Assembly: GCA_947625055.1 (NCBI GenBank)
Contig: CANQMT010000017.1
Coordinates: forward strand, 1 to 55,790
Origin: an uncultured Monoglobus sp.
GTDB taxonomy: Bacteria > Bacillota > Clostridia > Monoglobales > Monoglobaceae
DNA: 55,790 nt
Direction of reading: 5' to 3'
Part shown: positions 7,131 to 42,000 of the stretch, in pieces
Layout: each line of letters opens with the position of its first letter
Numbering within the stretch: the stretch's first letter is position 1
Translations under genes and position numbers: made by a program
Notes under the pieces: model-generated
Database searches by the model: none
What the model saw: the letters and a program-made list of their open reading frames with translations, nothing else
What the model was told of the DNA's origin: nothing

Positions 7131-7910
7131 TTATTCAAACAGCGCATACATCAGGATCCCCGCGGCGACGGCTGCGTTCAACGACTCAACACGCCCCTTC
7201 ATAGGTATCCTGACGTTGACATCCGACAAACTCAGGATCTCGCGCGAAACGCCGCGCGCCTCGCTGCCGATAACAGCGACGGTTTTTGACCCTTTGGCGG
7301 ATACGGCGTACTCAAACAGATCAACGCTCCCGTCAAGCGCGGCAGCCGCGATTTTAAAACCTTCCGCCTTAAACCTTTTTATATCCGAAGCCCCGCAGCC
7401 GGTCCTGAATCTGACGCGGAATATCGAGCCCATGGTAGAGCGCACCGATTTCGGATTATAAATATCCGCGCAGCCTTTCATGAGGCACACCATATCGGCG
7501 CCCGCCGCTTCGGCGGTCCGTATTGCCGCGCCCACGTTTCCGGGCTCGGAGACTCCGTCAAGCACCAGAATGTTTGACATTTCAGACGTCGGCGCCGCAT
7601 CCTCGGGAAAGACCTCAACAAGCGCGGCGATCCCCTGAGGGTTCACGGTCGATACCGCCGCGCGGAACAGCTTGTCCGGCACGACATAAACCTCATGACC
7701 CCTCTTTGAGAGTTCCTCGGGCAGAGGATCCGCAAACGCGTCGGAGGCGAACACGCATCTGATCCTGTCCGCCGCGAACATGGCGGCCTCCTCGACCATG
7801 CGTCTGCCTTCGACCGGGAACAGACCATGCTTTTTCCTGCCTTTAGGAACCGAGACCGCGCTCAGGAGTCTGAATTTTTTATTGTCCTTTGAAGTTATCG
7901 AATGTATCAT
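7131..7910 (-). CDS. TrmH/SpoU-family RNA 2'-O-methyltransferase
   Basis: SAM-dependent ribose methylase of rRNA or tRNA. The start is taken at 7910, where GGTGAGG lies 3-10 bases upstream; a frame open to 7937 has no such site. The 259-aa protein has an N-terminal substrate-binding domain (KKFRLL, GLFPVEGRRMVEEA) and the three SpoU motifs: NVGAAIRTAEAAGAD, IGSEARGVS and IPMKGRVESLNAAVAAGILMY. The conserved Asn, Glu/Arg and Asn are present. Its position after infC-rpmI-rplT is typical for this rRNA-methylase-like group. The substrate cannot be deduced, so no symbol is given. Confidence 0.88.
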   Translation of the reverse strand: MIHSITSKDNKKFRLLSAVSVPKGRKKHGLFPVEGRRMVEEAAMFAADRIRCVFASDAFADPLPEELSKRGHEVYVVPDKLFRAAVSTVNPQGIAALVEVFPEDAAPTSEMSNILVLDGVSEPGNVGAAIRTAEAAGADMVCLMKGCADIYNPKSVRSTMGSIFRVRFRTGCGASDIKRFKAEGFKIAAAALDGSVDLFEYAVSAKGSKTVAVIGSEARGVSREILSLSDVNVRIPMKGRVESLNAAVAAGILMYALFE

Positions 7911-9327: not shown

Positions 9328-9387
9328 GGGTTTTTTTAAAAAATTTTCAAAAATTCACCGCCGCGCTCCATTTGAATTAAAAAAGAC

Positions 9388-9416
9388 TTGTCAAAAATTG
9401 TCGAATATGTTATACT
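9388..9416 (+). promoter_or_regulatory. Sigma-A promoter of the DHHW gene
   Basis: TTGTCA (9388-9393), 17 bp, TATACT (9411-9416). The predicted transcript start falls at or inside the GGAGG at 9424-9428, so the mRNA would have almost no leader. Confidence 0.65.
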
Positions 9417-9434
9417 TTGCAACGGAGGATCTTT

Positions 9435-10784
9435 ATGTTAAAAAATATCACCGAAAAATTCCGCGCGCTTTCGGAAAAACTCAGAGTTTTAAAACGGAAA
9501 GCCGAAATACGGCCCGGCTCGGAGAAGTCTGCGGACCGCTCGAAAAATATGACAGATCAGGAAAAAACGTTCTCGGATCGTGCGAAAACTTGGTCGCATA
9601 GGGCGAAAGCTTTATTGAAGAAACCCGACCCGAAAAAGTGCTCGGATCTGCTCAAAAACAAAAAATTTATAGTCTGCTCGGCGGCCCTTATCATACTGAT
9701 ATGCGCCGCTATCGCCGCGTGCTCGACAGACACGGGCGAAGGCGAAAACACTGCTGTTGTCGTTGAGGACGAACCTGTCGAGACTCCGAAAAATCCTATG
9801 GACGGGGCGTCAGTCGCCGACGATTACAGATACGCAAATTATCTCGGCGCCTGGAACGGGGTCAGCGTGTTTTCAAACGGCTCCGAGAACTTCGGCATGG
9901 AACTTCTGAGCATCCGCGACCAAAGCGGGGCATACGCCTCCGCTGTTGCGGGGATCGCGCTCAGCGTGCCTGATGTTAACGTCTATGACGTTCTGGTCCC
10001 CACGGCTCAGGAATTTTACGCGCCGAACTCAAGCCGCACCAATCAGACGGCCGGGATAACCGACGTATATCAAGACCTTTTAAGCAGGAATATCCCCAAC
10101 TTAACTCCCGTAAACATTGTGTCTGCGCTTTCGGAACACGCGGCGGAAAAAATTTATTTCTGCACCGACCACCACTGGACACAGCGTGGCGCATATTACG
10201 CATATGCCGAATACTCGCGCAAAAATCCGGACATCGCCGAACTTGATCCCCTCGAGACCTACCGCACCGAAAACAATTACGGATACAAAGGTTCGCTTTG
10301 CAGCTTCACAAACGGTACCGACGGCAGCGCGCTGCTTTCGCAAAATCCCGACATGCTTCAGTTTTTTTATCCGAAGCCCGAGTATGAGGCCGCGGTGTAT
10401 TCCGACCCGTATATGACCTCGTATATGCAAAACGTGGAAGCGATCTGCCCGCGGCTTATGAACTACAGCAGCTTTCTGCAGGGTGATTTTCCTCTTGAGG
10501 TTTACAAAACAAATGTGAACAACGGGCGTAAGCTCTGCATAATAAAGGAGTCATACGGCGACGCGTTCTCGGTTTGGGCGCTCAACAATTACGAGGAGAT
10601 CTACATAGTCGATTACAGGATGTGGAACGGCGGGACTTACGGGGGATATGACAGCAGCAATATCGCCTTTAAGATCAAGGATTTCCACGATTTCGCAAAA
10701 TTTGACGATCTTATCATAATCAGCTATCCGGTGTCCGTTTCGGTTGATGCCCAGACGAGCCTGCTGGCGGCAATGTCAGCTTAG
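9435..10784 (+). CDS. Membrane-anchored DHHW-family (AlgX/SGNH-like) protein
   Basis: A 449-aa protein starting at ATG 9435 (GGAGG 6 bases upstream). Residues 1-75 are cytoplasmic and very basic, with repeated short charged segments. Residues about 80-95 (IVCSAALIILICAAIAACS) form one membrane helix. The rest would be outside the cell. The YFCTDHHWTQRGAYYAY motif near 240 is the hallmark of the DHHW family, relatives of the AlgJ/AlgX SGNH-type acyl esterases/transferases; IIKESYGDAFSVW near 375 could be the second block. Acetylation or deacetylation of a surface polysaccharide is an inference. It has its own promoter and is not clearly coupled to ung. Confidence 0.8.
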   Translation: MLKNITEKFRALSEKLRVLKRKAEIRPGSEKSADRSKNMTDQEKTFSDRAKTWSHRAKALLKKPDPKKCSDLLKNKKFIVCSAALIILICAAIAACSTDTGEGENTAVVVEDEPVETPKNPMDGASVADDYRYANYLGAWNGVSVFSNGSENFGMELLSIRDQSGAYASAVAGIALSVPDVNVYDVLVPTAQEFYAPNSSRTNQTAGITDVYQDLLSRNIPNLTPVNIVSALSEHAAEKIYFCTDHHWTQRGAYYAYAEYSRKNPDIAELDPLETYRTENNYGYKGSLCSFTNGTDGSALLSQNPDMLQFFYPKPEYEAAVYSDPYMTSYMQNVEAICPRLMNYSSFLQGDFPLEVYKTNVNNGRKLCIIKESYGDAFSVWALNNYEEIYIVDYRMWNGGTYGGYDSSNIAFKIKDFHDFAKFDDLIIISYPVSVSVDAQTSLLAAMSA

Positions 10785-10879
10785 CGACCGGCGAACGCGA
10801 CAAAAATCTGATCTCTTTATAAAAAGGCTTTGTCCGTCATCGAACGGAAACCAAAAAACGCAAAAAGGAGGACTGTTTT

Positions 10880-11551
10880 ATGGTACATATAGGCAACGAC
10901 TGGGATGAAATTCTGAGCGATGAGTTCCAAAAAGAATACTATTTGCGGCTGCGCGCTTTTCTGGCAAAAGAATACCGCAGCGGTACCGTCTATCCGGACA
11001 TGTATGACATATTCAACGCTCTGAAATACACGCCTTACAAAGACGTAAAAGCGGTCATACTCGGTCAGGATCCGTACCACGGCCCGGGTCAGGCTCACGG
11101 TCTGTGCTTCTCGGTATTGCCCGGGATCGTGCCGCCTCCGTCGCTTAAAAATATTTACAAGGAAATATACGATGAGTACGGTACCCCGCCGCCGGAGAGC
11201 GGAGAGCTGACAAACTGGGCAAGGCAGGGTGTGCTGCTGCTCAACACGGTGCTCACAGTCAGGGCGGGCATGGCCAATTCCCACCGCGGCATGGGCTGGG
11301 AGATCCTGACCGACAAAATCATTTCGCTGCTCAATGATCGCGAGGATCCGATTGTGTTCATGCTTTGGGGTGCGAACGCGAGGCAGAAAACGGCGCTTAT
11401 AACAAATCCGCGCCATCTTGTGCTTACCGCGGCGCACCCGAGCCCGCTCTCGGCGTACAACGGATTTTTCGGCTGCGGACATTTCAGAAAATGCAACGAT
11501 TTTCTGGCTCTGAACGGAAAGGATGAAATAAATTGGCAAAAAACGGTCTGA
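10880..11551 (+). CDS. ung: Uracil-DNA glycosylase, family 1
   Basis: Removes uracil from DNA as the first step of base excision repair. The 223-aa protein shows the water-activating loop GQDPYHGPGQAHGLCFSV (catalytic Asp), the LLLNTVLTVRAGMANSH segment, and the minor-groove loop HPSPLSAYNGFFGC with its catalytic His. The length matches the family. GGAGG lies 8 bases before the ATG. No obvious promoter is seen in the 95-bp gap after the DHHW gene. Confidence 0.97.
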   Translation: MVHIGNDWDEILSDEFQKEYYLRLRAFLAKEYRSGTVYPDMYDIFNALKYTPYKDVKAVILGQDPYHGPGQAHGLCFSVLPGIVPPPSLKNIYKEIYDEYGTPPPESGELTNWARQGVLLLNTVLTVRAGMANSHRGMGWEILTDKIISLLNDREDPIVFMLWGANARQKTALITNPRHLVLTAAHPSPLSAYNGFFGCGHFRKCNDFLALNGKDEINWQKTV

Positions 11552-21952: not shown

Positions 21953-23845
21953 CTAATTGATTACTTCAACCGGCGTGCTACGAGTAGCTTCGCCCTTGTC
22001 GTTATATGCAACAACAGAGAAGTAATAAACATTTATTGGTACTTCTATAGTTTGATTTATACTGCTGCTCTCGAATTCCATCATTTTCTCATCTCTGTTA
22101 TACAAAACGAGTTTTGTTATTTTTGTTCCCGGCTTCGGCGCTGCGGATATATTAAAATTAAGCATTCTGCCTGTTCCTGTAACTTCCAGACTGACGTCAG
22201 GATTTGTGGGATATTCCTGCCGCATCGTCCAATCGTTGACATAGGCTTCGATCCATGTGTAGCCTTTCCACTTGCCGGTTGGCACAATGTCTGTTTCCTT
22301 GGCGCCGTCCATTCCGTTTTCCTCTTTCCAGTCCTGCGGAATTTCAAAGGTTCGGTATACAGGCTCATATTGCATTACGCCGCCGACTTCTTCGGCGCTG
22401 TCTATTATCCTGCCGGTGCCGCATTTAACATCATTGATAACTCTCGCGTCGGTTTCATCGCGCTTAGGGAGCGACGCGCCCACATGGTCGAGAAGCGTAT
22501 TATATGTATCATACGCGCTCTCATACGGTATCTCATTAACCATAGGCACAGGCTCTGTTAAAAAGACCATTCCCTTGTCGGAGTTTATTCTCACGCCTTT
22601 TGTATTGTCGTTTGTAACCTCGTCGCTGCCTTCCATAACATTTCCCGCAAAGTAGAAATATGACGGATGCTCCTTTGGCGAGGATGTGTCAAATATCCGT
22701 GTCCTTAAGTTGCTTTTGGTTCCGGGGCCGGGTTTGTAGTAATTGTTTACCCAGTTGACCTTTGTGTCTGAGCCGTAATATGTTCCGTCATAAGCTGTAG
22801 ACTCGCCTCCGTATGCGGAATTGGTATTGCCCCATTGGTAAATTATATTATTTCTTACATCTGTTTCCTGAAGCTGCCGGTCAAGTCGAGGCGTTCTGCT
22901 GTCGTGGCTCGCCATCAGGTTATGATGATAGCTGGTGTTTGTTCCTCCCCAAATTCCGCCGTAGCCGTGGTTGCCTTTGATATGCACCGACTGCTTCAAG
23001 CTCTCGGAGCTTATGCAGTTTTGAACCGTCATATTGGCTCCGCCATAGAATGTAAGGCACTCGTCAACGCTGTAACTTACAGAGCAATGATCTATTATCG
23101 TATTATCCGATGCCCCGCCGAAACCGTCGATCTCCAATCTGCGAAAGTCGGTCGGTCTGACTCTGATATAACGGACAATACTGTCACCGCTCATTACAAT
23201 ATTCGCTCCTGTTATTGTGATCCCGTCGCCCGGGGCTGTCTGACCCAGTATTGTCACTCCGTATACGTTTCGGATCGTTGTCATCAGGTTTATTGTTCCG
23301 CCAACATCAAAAACAACTATTCTGCCCGGCTTGGAAACCGCGTCTCGGAACGAGCCCGGGCCCTCATCTTCAAGATTTGTCACATGGTAAACCGATATGT
23401 TCGGAAACTCCCTCGCGCCTTTCGCGAACTTGCCTGCGCCCTCGGCCCCGGGGAACGCCAACCCGTAGGCGACTTCAAATGTGGGCATAGGTGTCGGGCT
23501 TAAACCGATTATGTACGGCTCCGCCAAAGGCTCACAGTCCGCTGCGTTATTCCACAGCATTATTTTTGAGCCGTAACTTGGCTTTCTGTCAAGCGGTATA
23601 TTAAAGCTGTTCGTATTTTCGATTTTTCCGCTCTTGAACTGAACGCCGATCAAAACATCATCTTCATATTCAGCGGCAATCAATGTGTACTCGGTGCCCG
23701 ACTGCGTATTCGTGTCCGGAGTTATCGTAACTCCCGCATCGGACACGCCGTCAATTCTCCATTTTAATTCGGTATCCGCCGCAAATACGCCGCAGCACAA
23801 AAGAATAAGCATAATCAAAGTTGTAACAAAAAGCATTTTTTTCAT
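21953..23845 (-). CDS. Secreted pectate lyase, polysaccharide lyase family 1
   Basis: Cleaves polygalacturonate by beta-elimination outside the cell. The start at 23845 has GGAGG 5 bases upstream and a signal peptide (1-22, ...CCGVFA|AD). Residues about 27-113 are the accessory module shared with the other secreted proteins (LIAAEYEDDVLIGVQF, KIMLWNN, EPLAE). The parallel beta-helix lyase domain begins near 127 (LAFPGAEGAGKFAKGAR) and includes GSFRDAV, IVVFDVGGTI, QTAPGDGITITG, IIDHCSVSYSVDE and YHHNLMASHDSRTPRLD, where the Arg is the likely catalytic base. A C-terminal Ig-like region (about 555-630) ends the 630-aa protein. It has its own promoter behind phased repeats and lies downstream of an AgrC/LytTR pair. 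Confidence 0.9.
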   Translation of the reverse strand: MKKMLFVTTLIMLILLCCGVFAADTELKWRIDGVSDAGVTITPDTNTQSGTEYTLIAAEYEDDVLIGVQFKSGKIENTNSFNIPLDRKPSYGSKIMLWNNAADCEPLAEPYIIGLSPTPMPTFEVAYGLAFPGAEGAGKFAKGAREFPNISVYHVTNLEDEGPGSFRDAVSKPGRIVVFDVGGTINLMTTIRNVYGVTILGQTAPGDGITITGANIVMSGDSIVRYIRVRPTDFRRLEIDGFGGASDNTIIDHCSVSYSVDECLTFYGGANMTVQNCISSESLKQSVHIKGNHGYGGIWGGTNTSYHHNLMASHDSRTPRLDRQLQETDVRNNIIYQWGNTNSAYGGESTAYDGTYYGSDTKVNWVNNYYKPGPGTKSNLRTRIFDTSSPKEHPSYFYFAGNVMEGSDEVTNDNTKGVRINSDKGMVFLTEPVPMVNEIPYESAYDTYNTLLDHVGASLPKRDETDARVINDVKCGTGRIIDSAEEVGGVMQYEPVYRTFEIPQDWKEENGMDGAKETDIVPTGKWKGYTWIEAYVNDWTMRQEYPTNPDVSLEVTGTGRMLNFNISAAPKPGTKITKLVLYNRDEKMMEFESSSINQTIEVPINVYYFSVVAYNDKGEATRSTPVEVIN

Positions 23846-23985
23846 AATCTCCTCCTTTAACCATACTAAACCACACGAAAACCTTGACAAAACAGTATTT
23901 TATTACCGCATATTTTGCAATACCTAAAGCGCGAAGATCGGGCCGCCTCGCGAATATGATATGCCGCTGATATATTTCTTTTGTA

Positions 23986-24014
23986 ATTGTATCACATTGG
24001 TAATTATATGTCAA
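23986..24014 (-). promoter_or_regulatory. Sigma-A promoter of the pectate lyase gene
   Basis: TTGACA (24009-24014), 17 bp, TACAAT (23986-23991) on the minus strand, giving a leader of about 135 nt before the ATG at 23845. The -35 box lies 68 bp from the nearest phased repeat. Confidence 0.75.
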
Positions 24015-24081
24015 TAATTATTTTTGTGATTTAAAAAATACATATATTGAAATATTTTATGATGCATTAGACCGCACCTTA

Positions 24082-24153
24082 TATCGCAAGTATAGCGCCT
24101 TATACTTTTTTGTCAATAGCTGTATCGTGAACTACCGTTTTATATCGTGAACT
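24082..24153. promoter_or_regulatory. Phased direct repeats, candidate LytTR operator
   Basis: TATCGTGAACT occurs exactly at 24123-24133 and 24143-24153 (20 bp apart). A diverged copy, TATCGCAAGT, is at 24082, 41 bp away, which is two further turns of the same phase. LytTR regulators bind pairs of about 9-bp direct repeats spaced by two helical turns. The position, upstream of the pectate lyase promoter and next to a LytTR regulator gene, fits an activator site. Confidence 0.6.
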
Positions 24154-24237
24154 GCACTTTTTATTACTTGTTTAACATAAGTTTCTCCACCCTTTTCTCG
24201 CAAACAAATAATAACATAAAAAAACCTAAAAAATTTT

Positions 24238-24273
24238 TTCGTGTAATTTTTAGGCCGTTTCGTGTAATTTTTA
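24238..24273. repeat. Second pair of direct repeats with 21-bp spacing
   Basis: TTCGTGTAATTTTTA occurs exactly at 24238-24252 and 24259-24273. It shares the TCGTG core with the repeats at 24123 and 24143. It lies between the kinase terminator and the first repeat group and may be a second operator. Confidence 0.5.
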
Positions 24274-24276
24274 AGC

Positions 24277-24322
24277 TAAAAAAGAGCAAATCAGGAAATA
24301 ATTTCCCGATTTGCCCTTTTTT
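24277..24322. terminator. Terminator after the histidine kinase gene
   Basis: Long imperfect hairpin (GCAAATC / GATTTGC with GGAAAT / ATTTCC inside), flanked by A6 and T6 runs, 12 bp past the kinase stop. It separates the two-component operon from the pectate lyase gene. Confidence 0.85.
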
Positions 24323-24333
24323 CTATACAAATT

Positions 24334-25623
24334 TTATACGTCAAAAAGCACTATATTTGTTTCGTAAATTCCGTTTTCGCATGATGCGCGCATTATTCCG
24401 TTATACTTTTCAACTACCTCTGTTATGTTTTTTAATCCTATTCCGTGATTTGCCTTATCTGCCTTGTCGGTTTGAGGTATCCCGTTAACAAATTCAATTT
24501 GCTTGCATGTTGAATTTCTTATGCCTACAAACAATTGATTTTGACGGAAGAAAATGTCAAAAACTATCTGTCGCTTAGTCGGCTCAAGTTCCAAACACCC
24601 CTCAATAGCGTTGTCAAACAAATTACCCAGCAGCATACAGCACTCCACACCGTTGAGCTTTAAATCACAGGGCAGTTTCTTGATATTCAAATCAACTTCA
24701 ATATCGTTTTCTTTCGCTTGCTCAATCTTTGAATTTATTATCGAGTCAAGGGCGAGGTTGCCTGTATCCATTACCGCGCATTCTTTTGCAGCTTTTTCAA
24801 TGCCCAGTTCCGATATGTATTTTTTTGCCTCGCCGGTGTGATTGCTGTCAATCATTGAGTCTATAATTTGAAGATGGTTCTTAAAATCATGTTTTATTGA
24901 TGTCATTCTCACATTTTCGGCGTCTGATTGCTTGGCCTGCTTTTCCTGCGCATTCACCTGATTTTCAAGCAGAATATTCTTCATTTTTGTTTCAAAAGAG
25001 TCTATTAATTTGTTAAAAATATAAAAACTGATAATATTGCTGTACATTATACATATCATCAGTATTAATAAAAAAATACTGCTCCTGTTTGAACTTGTTT
25101 CAAAATAATAAGTTACAGATATTATTATAGCTAAGTTTATTATTGGTATTGTAAGTAATGCCAGCCAATAACTTCGGAACATATAGGCATATTTTTTATT
25201 ACCCCAAAGACATATTAACTCAATAATTCCAAACAACACAATTTTTGAAGCAATCATACCAACCATACGAAAGGCAGATTCATTAAACAACTCAACCGGT
25301 TGAATATGATTTAAAATTAACAATACCGCTCCGACCAAATATTCCGCCGTGCCGCTGATTAAAACAAAACCAAGCGAGCAAAAAATCTTTGATTTCAGAT
25401 CCCCGTTATAAAACATGACACCAAAATATGCCGCTGCAAGTGAAATTATTGTAGTTATAACCAAATTTGCGTTTATACAGCTGTTAATTATCATAATGAC
25501 AACAAATCCGGTTTTGGCAATAATCCTATATTTTCTTTTATCGATTGTTAAAAAATTATCGAACAACATAAATGCCGAAATCATTTCAAAGATGATTACA
25601 GCAATATCTAAAATTTTTAGCAT
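24334..25623 (-). CDS. AgrC-like sensor histidine kinase (GHKL), cassette 1
   Basis: A 429-aa kinase. The start is taken as ATG 25623, 8 bases after AGAGGT; a TTG at 25629 abuts the regulator stop. The N-terminal half (1-200) has about six membrane helices and no extracellular domain, as in AgrC-type peptide receptors. A linker coiled coil (about 205-235, Gln/Lys-rich) precedes the H box SIKHDFKNHLQII, the N box LLGNLFDNAIEGC and the G box HGIGLKNITEVVEKYNG, the HPK10/GHKL pattern. It is cotranscribed with the LytTR regulator upstream. The signal is unknown; no agrB or agrD is seen beside it. Confidence 0.88.
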   Translation of the reverse strand: MLKILDIAVIIFEMISAFMLFDNFLTIDKRKYRIIAKTGFVVIMIINSCINANLVITTIISLAAAYFGVMFYNGDLKSKIFCSLGFVLISGTAEYLVGAVLLILNHIQPVELFNESAFRMVGMIASKIVLFGIIELICLWGNKKYAYMFRSYWLALLTIPIINLAIIISVTYYFETSSNRSSIFLLILMICIMYSNIISFYIFNKLIDSFETKMKNILLENQVNAQEKQAKQSDAENVRMTSIKHDFKNHLQIIDSMIDSNHTGEAKKYISELGIEKAAKECAVMDTGNLALDSIINSKIEQAKENDIEVDLNIKKLPCDLKLNGVECCMLLGNLFDNAIEGCLELEPTKRQIVFDIFFRQNQLFVGIRNSTCKQIEFVNGIPQTDKADKANHGIGLKNITEVVEKYNGIMRASCENGIYETNIVLFDV

Positions 25624-25629
25624 TATCAA

Positions 25630-26337
25630 TTACCTCTTTTTCATAATATAATTCAAATATATATTCTCAAATTCTACTCTGCGAGAATCACTGACAGGCA
25701 CGGTTTCACCGTTGTTTAATATAACCTCTACCGCGGAACGCTTTGTGATCGCGGATAAATTCACGCAGAATGAATTGTGGGTCATCGCAAACCCATGCGC
25801 TTCGAAAATATTTTTATAGTCTTTCAATTTACCCATAAATTCATAAGCGCCATCAACTGTATGCAGAACGACTTTACGCATATCGTTATTGACATATATA
25901 ATATTGTCAAAAGGGATCGTGTACTCTTCACGATTGTATTTAAAAGAGAAGCGCGAAGAGTTTTGAGAATCCGCAATCTCCCGATCCAGCAGATCCTTGA
26001 GTTCCTCATAACTTACGGGTTTATTAAGAAATCCCGAAGGAGTGCATTTGAAACAATCGCGCATATATTTTTCATGATTCGTAAGAAAAATAATAGTGAC
26101 GTTTTTATCAAGCTCTCTTATCTTGTTTGCCGTTTCCACTCCGTTAATCTCGTTCATCTCAATATCAGTAATGAGCATATCAAAAACATTGCCGTGTATA
26201 CTGTAATATTTTAAAAGCTCCTCACCGGAATAAAAGACATTCCACTCAAGCTCTTTATAAGTTTTTCTGTACCTAAGAAGATGACTTTCTATATTATTTA
26301 TCCAATTATTGTCATCATCGCAAACCGCAATGTTCAT
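25630..26337 (-). CDS. LytTR response regulator (AgrA-like), cassette 1
   Basis: A 235-aa protein: receiver domain 1-120 (acidic pocket CDDDN at 6-10, phospho-acceptor Asp58 in MLITDIEMNEING, T/S in IIFLTNH and Lys in SGFLNKPVSYEEL) and C-terminal LytTR domain 135-235 (FSFKYNREEYTIPFDNIIYVNNDMRKVVLHT, YEFMGKL, GFAMTHNSFCVNLSAI, ILNNGETVPVS). AAAGGAG precedes the ATG with 9-base spacing. With the adjacent kinase it forms a complete two-component system; the pectate lyase behind the phased repeats is the obvious candidate target. Confidence 0.93.
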   Translation of the reverse strand: MNIAVCDDDNNWINNIESHLLRYRKTYKELEWNVFYSGEELLKYYSIHGNVFDMLITDIEMNEINGVETANKIRELDKNVTIIFLTNHEKYMRDCFKCTPSGFLNKPVSYEELKDLLDREIADSQNSSRFSFKYNREEYTIPFDNIIYVNNDMRKVVLHTVDGAYEFMGKLKDYKNIFEAHGFAMTHNSFCVNLSAITKRSAVEVILNNGETVPVSDSRRVEFENIYLNYIMKKR

Positions 26338-36575: not shown

Positions 36576-37304
36576 ATGCGTGTAGCCATATGCGATGATC
36601 AGGACGAATGGGTTGAGCAAATTGAAAAATACTTAACTCGTTTCAAACAAAGTTTCCAAAATATAAAATGGGAATCTTTTTACAGTGCGGAAGAATTTTT
36701 GAACTATATTGGAAACAGAAATAATTTCTTTGATATTTTAATAACCGACATTGAAATGGAAAAAATCAACGGTATAGAACTTGCAAAAAGGGTTAGGGAA
36801 AAAGATAGCGGAATAGTGATTTTCTTTTTGACAAGTCATGACGAATATATACGCCAATGCTTTGCACCGAGACCTCTTGGCTTTTGGGATAAACCTCTTG
36901 AATATGTGCAATTTGAAAAAGATATGACGCAGGCTGTCAACTTTTTGAAAAATAACAGTGATGTTTTCAGCTTTAAAGACAAGAACGGATATATGCGGAT
37001 ACCATACAGCAACATAATATATTTTCGCACTAATGGCAAAAAGATAATCGTGCACACTTTCGATACGGATTATGAATTTTACGGAACGTTTAAGAACCAT
37101 GAGAAAATATGGAAGTCTGCGGGTTTTGTTAAAGCAAACAGATTTTATTATTTGAATTCGGAATTTATTTTCAGATTTAAACCGCCGAATATTTATTTGC
37201 AAAACGGTGAAAAAATCAAGTCAACGCAATCAAGTATAAATACAATAAAAATGATTATTTTTAAATCAGATTGCTACAACGCCGTAATTCAAATGGAGGA
37301 TTGA
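36576..37304 (+). CDS. LytTR response regulator (AgrA-like), cassette 2
   Basis: A 242-aa paralogue of the cassette 1 regulator, aligned without gaps through the receiver: CDDQDEW at 6-12, phospho-acceptor Asp58 in ILITDIEMEKING, FFLTSHDEYI and GFWDKPLEY. The C-terminal LytTR domain covers about 135-242 (FSFKDKNGYMRIPYSNIIYFRTNGKKIIVHT, YEFYGTFKN, GFVKANRFYYLNSEFI, NIYLQNGEKI). AGAGGTG precedes the ATG by 8 bases. The following kinase's ribosome site is inside its last codons. Confidence 0.93.
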   Translation: MRVAICDDQDEWVEQIEKYLTRFKQSFQNIKWESFYSAEEFLNYIGNRNNFFDILITDIEMEKINGIELAKRVREKDSGIVIFFLTSHDEYIRQCFAPRPLGFWDKPLEYVQFEKDMTQAVNFLKNNSDVFSFKDKNGYMRIPYSNIIYFRTNGKKIIVHTFDTDYEFYGTFKNHEKIWKSAGFVKANRFYYLNSEFIFRFKPPNIYLQNGEKIKSTQSSINTIKMIIFKSDCYNAVIQMED

Positions 37305-37306
37305 AA

Positions 37307-38596
37307 ATGTATTATATTATTGACGCGCTGACAATATTATTCGACGTGTATGTTACATTTATATTTTTTGATGATTTGTTAAAATGGAAACCTATAAATA
37401 TCTTTTGGAAAACAGCTATAGGTTTGTTTATTTTTGCCGCAACATTTTTGCAGAATATAGTTGTCGGTAATATGGTTTTTACAATTCTGATAAGTATTGT
37501 CACATTGCATATTGCTGCGTTTATCGGGTTTGAAGGCAAACCGGTAAAAAAAATATTGGTTGTGATCACTTATATGATATTGGTGATCGTATCGGACATA
37601 CTTACAACATTTATTAACATGATTTTTGTAAACGGCGAGAGCAATACACTTCTTAATATCACAGAAAATGCGAAAATTATGGGAATGTTAATGTCCAAGC
37701 CAATTATATTGTTTTTGGTAAAGCTGGTTCCGCTGTTTGTAAATAAAAAAGATTTTAAATTATACCGTGATTGTAATGTGTTATTACTGACTGTTCCCGT
37801 TATCAGTATTGTTTTACTGATAGCCATAGTTAATTTTTTTGATAATATACAAATAAACGACACTAAACCGGTATTTATTGTTTCTCTATGTGTTTTATAT
37901 CAAACGATACTGATTTTTTACTTGTTTGAGCGAATTATGAGTACCGCAAGCTTAAAAAATAAGTATGAAATACTTGAAAATCAGATGTTTATACAGGAAA
38001 AACAGACTAAATCAGAAAAAGGAATTGCGAATAGCTTAAAATCTGTACGCCACGACTTAAAAAACCATTTTCAAGCACTATATAATATGTTGATGGATAA
38101 GCATTATGACAATGCCAAAGAATACATAAAATCAACCGGCTTGGTTGAAGACGTAAAGTATGGTAAAATACACACCGGAGAAATCGCTTTTGACGCCATA
38201 ATCAACAGCAAGCTGTATGAAGCCGAAAAAATGGGCATAGAAACAACCGTCAACTGCAAAATGCCAAGTGATATAGAAATATCGGATATAGATATATGCG
38301 TTCTTTTCGGAAACTTGCTTGACAATGCAATCGAGGGATGTATGCGTGCCGATACGGACAACAAGAAAATATTACTTTATGTTGAATACATAAAAAGCAG
38401 ATTGATTTGCAGAATAAAAAATACCTCAAACAAAACGGAAACAATAAACGGTGATTTTGTTTCATCAAAAAGTGATAAGGAGGAACACGGCATAGGTATA
38501 ATAAATATAAAAAGCATAGTCCTTAAATATGACGGCATATGTAAAATGGGATATGAAAACGGATACTTTCAAACAAATATGACTTTATTCGTTTAG
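37307..38596 (+). CDS. AgrC-like sensor histidine kinase (GHKL), cassette 2
   Basis: A 429-aa kinase, the same length as its cassette 1 paralogue. ATG 37307 is 7 bases after GGAGG; the regulator stop ends at 37304. About six membrane helices fill the first 200 residues, followed by a coiled linker (SLKNKYEILENQMFIQEKQTK), the H box SVRHDLKNHFQALYNML, the N box LFGNLLDNAIEGC and the G box HGIGIINIKSIVLKYDG. This is the HPK10 pattern of peptide pheromone receptors. The next feature downstream resembles AgrB, which supports that reading. Confidence 0.9.
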   Translation: MYYIIDALTILFDVYVTFIFFDDLLKWKPINIFWKTAIGLFIFAATFLQNIVVGNMVFTILISIVTLHIAAFIGFEGKPVKKILVVITYMILVIVSDILTTFINMIFVNGESNTLLNITENAKIMGMLMSKPIILFLVKLVPLFVNKKDFKLYRDCNVLLLTVPVISIVLLIAIVNFFDNIQINDTKPVFIVSLCVLYQTILIFYLFERIMSTASLKNKYEILENQMFIQEKQTKSEKGIANSLKSVRHDLKNHFQALYNMLMDKHYDNAKEYIKSTGLVEDVKYGKIHTGEIAFDAIINSKLYEAEKMGIETTVNCKMPSDIEISDIDICVLFGNLLDNAIEGCMRADTDNKKILLYVEYIKSRLICRIKNTSNKTETINGDFVSSKSDKEEHGIGIINIKSIVLKYDGICKMGYENGYFQTNMTLFV

Positions 38597-38734: not shown

Positions 38735-38857
38735 GTGATTAAAATTATACACGAACTTTCATGTAAAATAACCAAAGCTTTATGCAATGCACAAAATATT
38801 GTTGACAAGAATAAATACGAAGAAATTGCATATGGTATTGTTCACCACCTCAAGTAA
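38735..38857 (+). pseudogene. AgrB-like N-terminal remnant
   Basis: A 40-codon frame (GTG or ATA start, AAAGGG upstream, TAA at 38855-38857) reads IHELSCKITKALC, then AQNIVDKNKYEEIAYGIVHHLK. AgrB peptidases of Clostridia start with the same pattern: LS.KI...L, an Asp/Glu-rich gap, then E...YGI...L. The membrane helices and the catalytic His/Cys that should follow are absent. It lies between an AgrC-like kinase and a pectate lyase gene. The homology is a pattern match by eye and rests on a short segment. Confidence 0.55.
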
Positions 38858-39060: not shown

Positions 39061-42000
39061 ATGAAGTTAAAACAAATGTGTTTGGTTTTTGCGGCGGCGC
39101 TGATTTTAAGCCTGGCGGTCTGCACGGCAGCTTTTGCCGAAACCTCGGGTGATTTTCAATACGAGATCAATCCCGACGGCGCGAGCGTGACTATCACAGG
39201 CTACACCGGCAGGGATGAAGTAGTGGTTATACCGCCCGGAATCGACGGGCTCAGCGTTACGGATATAAAATTGTCGGGCTCGGTAAACTCGACCGCGGTG
39301 AGTGTCTCGATCCCCGAAACCGTGACAAACATAACACACAGCTTTTTCACGGTATACAGCAATATGAGCGAGATCATTGTTTCGGATGACAATAAAACTT
39401 ACGCGGCCGCGGACGGAGTGCTTTTTAGTAAGGACATGACACAGCTTATTGGCTGGCCGAGGAAAAAATCCGCGGATACATACGCTGTTCCCGACGGTGT
39501 TAAAACGATCGGCGCTCAAGCGTTTGCAAGTATCTCGGGAATAAAGGCGATCACACTTCCCGAGGGACTTTTGTCGATAAAAACAAAAGCGTTTTTGTCA
39601 TGCGGCGCGGCAGTAAATATCCCCGCGAGCGTGACCGAGATCGATTCGGGCGCTTTCGGAAGAAAAGAACTTAATGACATTGACATATCTGCGGACAACA
39701 AAAGCTTTGTTATCTCGGATAAAGTATTATACAGCGCCGATATGACGCGCGTTCTGCTCTGCTCGACCGAGAAAGCCGACTCGGAACTGAAACTTCCCGA
39801 AACCGCCGTCGTGATCGACGATTACGCGTTTTACGGAAACAAATATCTGATAAGCGCGTATCTGCCCGATACTGTGACTGCAGTCGGAACTTATACGTTT
39901 GAAAACTGCAAAAACCTTCAGGCGGCGAGACTTCCGAATTCAGTCACCGTTATTCCCAACTCAATTTTCAGTTCTTGCGACCTTAAACATTTTGAGGTGG
40001 GTAAGAACGTTACAACGATCGAAAACAGCGCATTCTACGGATGTGAAAATTTAGCGATATCGATACCGGAGAACGTGACCGATATAGGGTTCAGAGTGTT
40101 CTCGCAATCGCCAAGAGGCACAACCACAATATACGGCGTGGCGGGCTCATACGCCGAGACCTATGCTAAGCAGAACAATATTCCGTTCGCGGACATTTCA
40201 ACAATGCCGACACCCGGCCCTTTGCCGTCCGCGATTCCCACGCCCACTCCGACTTCGTCGGATCCGACACCCACGCCGCGGCCGACTTCAAATCCGCGGC
40301 CGACTTCAAATCCGCGGCCGACTTCAAATCCGCGGCCGACTTCAACTCCTATGCCATCCGCGATCCCCACACCGAGTCCGACTTCATCTTATCCGACACC
40401 CTCGCCAACGCCGGTCCCTCCGACTGTTCCGCCGAGAGCGACCAGACCTCCGGCGACTGCGGCGCCGACAGACACGATGCCTTGGAAAATAAACAGCTTT
40501 TACGGAAACTCGATAAGTATATCCGTAGGCGACAATACCGAGGAAGAAACGCCTTTCACCGTGATCGCCGCGAAATACAAGGATAATATTTTGATTGATG
40601 TTTCCGTTGAGACTTTGACAACAAAGTGCCCCGCGGGAATGATATTTAACGCCGATTTGAGCAGCGTTCCGTCCGTTACCGGCGAGGGCGAGTATATAAA
40701 AATAATGCTGTGGGACAATACGGACGGCTGCAGGCCTTTGGCTCTGCCATACACGACGACCCCGCTTCTCACCGCGTTCCCCGGCGCCGAGGGCGGAGGC
40801 AAATATTCCACCGGCGGACGCGGAAGAGGCGGCGCGGAGGTTTACCATGTCACCAACTTAAACGACAGCGGCCCCGGCTCGTTCCGCGACGCGGTGTCTG
40901 AGGCCGGCAGAATAGTCGTGTTTGACGTGGGCGGAACGATTAATCTTGAAAAGTCGATAAGGTATATCGGAGGCGTGACTATCCTCGTTCAGACCGCGCC
41001 CGGCGACGGAATAACGATAACCGGCGCCAATCTGGAGCTTGACGGCGGCAATATTATCCGTTATTTGAGAATAAGGCCGACGTTTAAGAACAAGATCGAG
41101 GCCGACGGCCTCGGAGGATTTGACGACATGCGAACGATAATCGACCACTGCTCGGTGAGCTACAGCATTGACGAATGCATCTCGTTTTATGAGTACACTG
41201 ATTTCACGCTTCAAAACTGCATAAGCTCTGAGAGCCTCAAAAACGGCGGCCACTCCAAGGGCGCCCACGGCTACGGCGGTATCTGGGGAGGCACGAACGC
41301 GAGCTTCCACCATAACCTTTTGGCGAGCCACGACAGCCGAAACCCGAGACTCGCGGCGGGACGCTTCGAGGGCGACTTTGATTATGACATGAGCGAGCAA
41401 ATAACTTTGACCGATCTTCGCAACAATATAATCTACAACTGGGGCGGCAATTCGGCCTACGGAGGTCAGGGAGCGATGGCCGCGAACATAATAAACAGCT
41501 ATTACAAGCCCGGCCCGGCGACAACAAGCCACCGCTCAAGAATATTTCAGACGACGTCCACCGGAAACGGCATAACCTCGAAATGGGCAACCGACCTGTA
41601 TGTTGACGGAAACTATATGGAAGGAAACCAGAGCGTGACCGCCGACAACTCAAAAGGCGTTGATCACGACAGCACAGTCGCGCAATATTATGTCTGGACA
41701 AAGGATAATATAACCGACGAGGCAAAGACGGTTCACTTTAAGTACGAGAACGACTATCCCGTGACTACGCAGACAGCCGAGGAAACATACAATACTCTGC
41801 TCGACCACATCGGAGCGTCGCTCCCGAGGCGCGATGAGACCGACGCGAGAGTGATAAACGATGTTAAAAACGGAACAGGCAGAATAATCGACACCGAGAC
41901 CGAGGTCGGCGGCGTTATGCAATACCCGACGGTGTACCGCTGGTTCGAGATCCCGCAGGACTGGAAAGACGCGAACGGCATGGGAGATGCCTATGAGGGC

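Follow-up and report, generated by a model that had tools for sequence, protein, structure and literature searches.

Predicted LytTR-type operators of different class stacked upstream of a pectate lyase gene in Monoglobus

Introduction

In the agr P2/P3 operators of Staphylococcus, which are recognized by AgrA, and in clostridial agr-type loci, LytTR direct repeats stand about two helical turns apart upstream of a promoter, as they do at the Monoglobus locus described here. The agr loci also share an AgrC-like kinase with this locus, and agrB follows their operator, as in several Monoglobus loci. The VirR boxes of Clostridium perfringens and the RgaR sites of Clostridioides difficile have a CAGTT core and a two-turn pitch, again as seen here; they further resemble the present case in serving a small regulon of directly activated genes and in the partner kinases VirS and RgaS, which are AgrC-like (PMC4963840, PMC10602386). 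In LytTR regulatory systems (LRS), the repeats lie 11–13 bp apart with a strong bias towards a position 10 bp upstream of the −35 element; the Monoglobus sites may be likened to those of HdrRM and BrsRM of Streptococcus mutans, which have this spacing and position and are two systems that co-regulate shared targets (PMC6193735).

We analysed a 55.8-kb stretch of DNA from a Monoglobus genome (contig C17; hereafter the window), in which direct repeats precede a pectate lyase gene. The host is a gut bacterium, and pectin is a major dietary fibre. A literature search found no account of LytTR control in Monoglobus or of stacked LytTR operators, nor any account of the control of pectinases in Monoglobus.

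Results

Anatomy of the region upstream of the lyase gene

The features of the region follow one another along minus-strand transcription in the order given below, from the regulator gene to the lyase.

25630–26337, minus strand: RR1, response regulator with receiver and LytTR domains (PF00072 and PF04397); proposed reader of pair 2
24334–25629, minus strand: HK1, AgrC-like GHKL sensor kinase (PF14501, 6e-19; PF14689)
24278–24322, minus strand: terminator hairpin after HK1 (fold z = −7.95; none of 200 shuffles equally stable)
24258–24273, minus strand: pair 2 (class C), distal half-site TAAAAATTACACGAAA
24237–24252, minus strand: pair 2 (class C), proximal half-site TAAAAATTACACGAAA
24164–24178, minus strand: RBS-preceded four-codon frame, ATG-TTA-AAC-AAG-TAA, between pair 2 and pair 1
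24143–24153, minus strand: pair 1 (class B), distal half-site AGTTCACGATA
24123–24133, minus strand: pair 1 (class B), promoter-proximal half-site AGTTCACGATA
24089–24116, minus strand: promoter P1, TTGACA-16-TATACT (11 of 12 consensus positions), 6 bp downstream of pair 1
23986–24014, minus strand: promoter P2, TTGACA-17-TACAAT with TG before the −10 (11 of 12 consensus positions), conserved on contig C5
23900–23985, minus strand: conserved untranslated leader after P2, with similar copies on C5 and in genomes G002, G004 and G005
21953–23845, minus strand: lyA, secreted pectate lyase of 630 aa from the ATG at 23845; RBS GGAGGAG

The lyA product matched the pectate lyase of PDB entry 9buj (E = 3e-52) and the NCBIfam model PelZ, the latter at 1.7e-28, which is under that model's cut-off. 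HK1 matched the AgrC model NF046015 across most of its length with a score under the cut-off. Cassette 1 (RR1/HK1) thus combines a LytTR response regulator with an AgrC-like kinase, as in agr quorum-sensing loci. An LRS consists of a LytTR protein without a receiver domain and a membrane inhibitor; RR1 has a receiver domain and is partnered by a GHKL kinase, which places cassette 1 outside that group. Neither agrB nor agrD is present in cassette 1. The only frame between pair 2 and pair 1 is that of four codons, possibly the stub of an agrB start, to judge from the agrB start in G005 (MFNK...).

Pair 2 comes directly after the HK1 terminator and is followed by an AT-rich stretch with a weak −10. 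P2 has no operator of its own. For the leader (23900–23985), no Rfam family was matched, and the consensus fold was weak with an unfavourable covariation term and no convincing covariation. The segment that includes this leader (window 23900–24014, minus strand; 9330–9440 of the C5 locus L011) recurs at several Monoglobus loci, at varying positions relative to the operators. According to the initial annotation, the repeats separate the LytTR system from the lyase promoter. Both pairs do lie between HK1 and the lyase, but pair 1 belongs to a lyase promoter, P1.

The two repeat pairs and their significance

Pair 1 is an exact 11-nt repeat, TATCGTGAACT, at 24123–24133 and 24143–24153 (pitch 20), as had been annotated. 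Read in the direction of the lyase (minus strand, 24153 to 24123), it is AGTTCACGATA-taaaacggt-AGTTCACGATA, with an N9 spacer (class B). Pair 2, previously given as 15 nt at 24238 and 24259, is slightly longer: TTTCGTGTAATTTTTA, 16 nt exact, at 24237–24252 and 24258–24273 (pitch 21), or TAAAAATTACACGAAA-cggcc-TAAAAATTACACGAAA on the minus strand from 24273 to 24237 (class C).

The window has three exact, non-simple repeats that are 11 nt or longer with a pitch of 19–23; 60 dinucleotide shuffles had 0.07 on average. When the region 23846–24333 was shuffled 2000 times, one such repeat arose in six shuffles and two in none. The presence of both pairs is not due to chance. CACGAWA pairs at 18–23 bp were found only three times in the 2.2-Mb genome, namely pair 1, pair 2 and one site on contig C5. 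This genome-wide motif search, of the kind that the initial annotation had proposed, showed the sites to be rare and phased rather than randomly scattered.

A supposed diverged third copy, TATCGCAAGTA (24082–24092, minus strand), was rejected as a chance likeness: it falls in the −10/+1 region of P1, overlapping the −10 box, and the other class B modules do not conserve its CGATA. The TCGTG core taken to unite the repeats exists in both pairs but is misleading, and a single motif for both was discarded, because half-site, pitch, promoter type and genomic distribution differ and mark the pairs as separate classes.

Operator geometry

The 9-mer core of the proximal repeat of pair 1 ends exactly 10 bp before TTGACA, and this distance holds exactly for A, B, D, E and F. 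Class C deviates, with a weak −35 and a TG-type extension at the −10; pair 2 has no clear −35. The pitches of 20 (pair 1) and 21 (pair 2) fit the LytTR-type direct-repeat spacing of about 20–22 bp. With the broad LytTR consensus, the 9-mers GTAGTTCAC and GCAGTTCAC show only a loose, partial fit; they keep the GTT core and resemble the CCAGTT box of VirR. The VirR motif, CCAnTT-N15-CCAGTT, has the CAGTT core in common with class B and a nearly equal pitch (PMC4963840). The class D and F 9-mers, CCCACTTAG and CCCGCTTGG, resemble ACCACTTAA and ACCGCTTAT of the HdrRM and BrsRM systems.

Operator classes and regulator families across the genus

Searches of 12 Monoglobus genomes yielded eight class A sites (GACCRATGYTGCA, pitch 20), eight class B sites, confined to five of the genomes, and 12 class C sites (AATTACAYGAAA, pitch 21). 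The reversed-pattern controls gave no match to any of the three classes in the 12 genomes. Classes D–F were sought within the retrieved loci only. Across the eight class B modules, conservation was 0.99 in the half-sites and 1.0 in TTGACA, compared with 0.60 at positions 11–50 bp upstream; since the spacer is conserved too, the modules may be recent copies, and this conservation may not be fully independent. Beyond the genus, a scan of an 84,980-species collection for the operator matched five Monoglobus contigs and ten other records. The ten were set aside: in nine, inspection showed no TTGACA at the 10-bp distance downstream, and the remaining record, from Nitrosomonas, was a long tandem array.

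To match regulators with classes, the region after the kinase gene was checked for every LytTR regulator/kinase pair. Family-specific repeats stood 3′ of the kinase for fam2 (class A), fam13, which includes RR5 (class B), fam4, which includes RR1, and fam9 (both class C), fam6 (class D) and fam7 (class E). Other LytTR regulator/kinase pairs had no such repeat, nor did some members of the repeat-bearing families. Based on the 20–21 bp repeats, the 10-bp geometry, the neighbouring LytTR regulator/kinase pairs and these family-specific repeats, the initial reading of the repeats as LytTR operators appears largely right. The architecture supports it, with the amendment that pairs 1 and 2 are predicted to be two operators of different class rather than one.

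Class E in this genome (contig C27) and class C in G010 lie directly before agrB (Pfam AgrB, 2.5e-24 and 1.3e-35, respectively), which marks these systems as agr-type. Intact agrB genes were present at related loci in C27, G010 and G004. In G004 (contig C57; L133, about 7180–7350), a 55-aa AgrD-like peptide, ...STCFAIYYQPKMPKSLIESDAEE, is encoded downstream of agrB, and a similar peptide frame, ...QPAVPKTLLETD, follows agrB on contig C3 of G010. The window contains a 40-codon frame (38735–38857, plus strand), the first part of which is identical to the intact agrB of G004:C57; it is located after the second LytTR regulator/kinase pair (36576–38596) and before a lyase-like gene at 39061. In several species (e.g. 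L124, L129 and L123), the gene for the widespread LytTR regulator fam0 is preceded by a further repeat, GCGTGAAATGYGGG (pitch 21).

Stacking of operator classes

Sites of different class were stacked as follows, with the C5 site standing alone.

G002, contig C23: B-C-D-A
G005, contig C3: B-C-A
G005, contig C1: A-B-C
G009, contig C57: C-D-A
G004, contig C27: A-B
G002, contig C2: A-B
G009, contig C6: B-A
G003, contig C22: C-D
Window: C-B
Contig C5: B alone

The stacks hold two to four different classes. Order and combination vary between loci; each operator-promoter unit stays whole. Of the eight class B sites, seven share a stack with another class; the eighth, on C5, abuts HK5. Where the genes downstream of stacks were read, they mostly encoded lyase-type or leucine-rich-repeat secreted or surface proteins. 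At one locus of G002 (L043, contig C2, 7374–18750), class A, B and D operators, together with a secreted protein, are interspersed among four consecutive LytTR regulator/kinase pairs.

Probable regulators of the two pairs

The RR1 orthologue of G009 (contig C92; 68% identical) is likewise followed by a terminator and then a class C operator at the equivalent position. For this reason, pair 2 is best read as the predicted home operator of the neighbouring RR1, its most likely role.

The whole 31 bp of pair 1, with the spacer, is found at just two places in the 2.2-Mb genome, the window and contig C5. The C5 copy overlaps the stop codon of HK5, the kinase gene of a separate LytTR system (RR5/HK5), and is followed by a GLUG-motif gene and a second lyase-like gene. 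The GLUG-motif gene (L011, 9470–10983) is split into two frames, 9470–10117 and 10114–10983, perhaps by a frameshift. C5 and C17 share about 260 bp of promoter and leader at ~84% identity, yet identity between RR5 and RR1 is no more than 21%, which means that the operator was not copied together with the adjacent regulator. The 84% identity over this promoter region is also what would be expected if the repeats were inert remnants of C5/C17 promoter duplications, read by no regulator. We consider this very improbable, because the flanks of the other modules diverge (0.60 upstream) while their half-sites (0.99) and TTGACA (1.0) do not, because each operator-promoter unit is whole even though class order and combination differ by locus, and because decay has affected the only copy that adjoins a broken HK5.

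The initial annotation had assigned both pairs to the cassette 1 regulator. This agrees with the prediction for pair 2 but not for pair 1, whose repeat overlaps the stop codon of the unrelated C5 system (regulator 21% identical). RR1 alone could act on two versions of a CACGA-core site, and the position of both pairs between HK1 and the lyase, together with their common CACGA, would suit such a regulator. It would have to accommodate differences in half-site, pitch (20 versus 21) and promoter type, however, and class B stands after the unrelated RR5 (21% identity to RR1) and in stacks with other classes, while class C occurs without B after the RR1-type kinase in G009:C92. We therefore regard control of both pairs by RR1 alone as improbable.

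On balance, though this is the least secure part of the scheme, we favour RR5, encoded on C5, as the regulator that would read pair 1 in trans in this genome. This assignment is based on the overlap of class B with the HK5 stop codon in G000 and on contig C45 of G002, where RR5/HK5 carries an internal deletion and is followed, at the corresponding place, by a decayed class B operator. An intact RR5 was seen in G000 and G005 alone; the gene is deleted in G002 and was not found in G004 (90% complete) or G009 (96% complete). Intact class B operators persist in these last three genomes, so another regulator may read class B. Gaps in the metagenome-assembled genomes could account for the absence of RR5 from G004 and G009, though not easily from G002. 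In a phylogenetic profile, no family fitted the class B distribution exactly, and only the widespread fam0 was present in all five B-carrying genomes. The retention of B in G002, G004 and G009 and this co-occurrence would favour a further LytTR regulator, neither RR1 nor RR5, with fam0 as an example. We think this unlikely: fam0 also occurs in genomes without B and has its own repeat, GCGTGAAATG (pitch 21), which is unlike B and precedes the fam0 gene in several genomes, and the stop codon of HK5 is overlapped by B in G000, the position that B also held in G002.

Discussion

Judging from sequence comparison, the region is likely to be an activator promoter with stacked sites and more than one input, in which pair 2 serves RR1 and pair 1 serves RR5 in trans, both acting on the lyase. 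The two direct-repeat operators would differ in specificity, each being the site of a LytTR dimer upstream of a lyase-directed promoter. Pair 2 would be the home operator of the adjacent agr-type RR1/HK1; in other species, class C follows related kinases and could drive agrB. Pair 1 would be an operator-promoter module with its home at RR5/HK5 on C5. A phosphorylated LytTR dimer would occupy both half-sites from the same side of the helix and bring RNA polymerase to the promoter that begins 10 bp further on, such that two sensor systems could switch on the lyase, one via pair 2 and the other via pair 1 and P1, with P2 adding expression. We observed the repeats, their geometry, their conservation across the genus, their stacking and the LytTR systems beside them, and from these we infer LytTR binding, activation, the matching of regulators to sites and a peptide signal. 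A cyclic peptide may be the signal, as suggested by AgrC-like kinases and by agrB at sister loci.

More tentatively, and with slightly less than even confidence, we propose that Monoglobus possesses interchangeable operator-promoter modules of at least five specificities, one for each agr-type system, which are stacked up to four deep before pectinase or leucine-rich-repeat genes to combine peptide or other signals, and that a lyase has replaced agrB/agrD in some systems. In the second cassette of the window, agrB and agrD appear to have been deleted, with the lyase-like gene standing in their place. If the proposal is true, modular promoters would link pectin breakdown in Monoglobus to more than one agr-type system, perhaps of the quorum-sensing kind, at a time. 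Pairing operator classes with regulator families would also provide well-suited data from which to learn how LytTR domains select their binding sites.

Unlike in agr loci, the Monoglobus operator would drive a pectate lyase, cassette 1 is without agrB and agrD, retaining at most a four-codon stub, and the stacks bring together operators that belong to different systems. VirR and RgaR each represent one regulator with one motif class; by contrast, several classes are combined at one gene in Monoglobus, and the pitch of pair 1 is 20. The regulators of HdrRM and BrsRM act with a membrane inhibitor, whereas those of Monoglobus have receiver domains and histidine kinases. Overall, the stacking of several classes throughout the genus, a variant on the known LytTR and agr-type operators, is the finding of greater interest.
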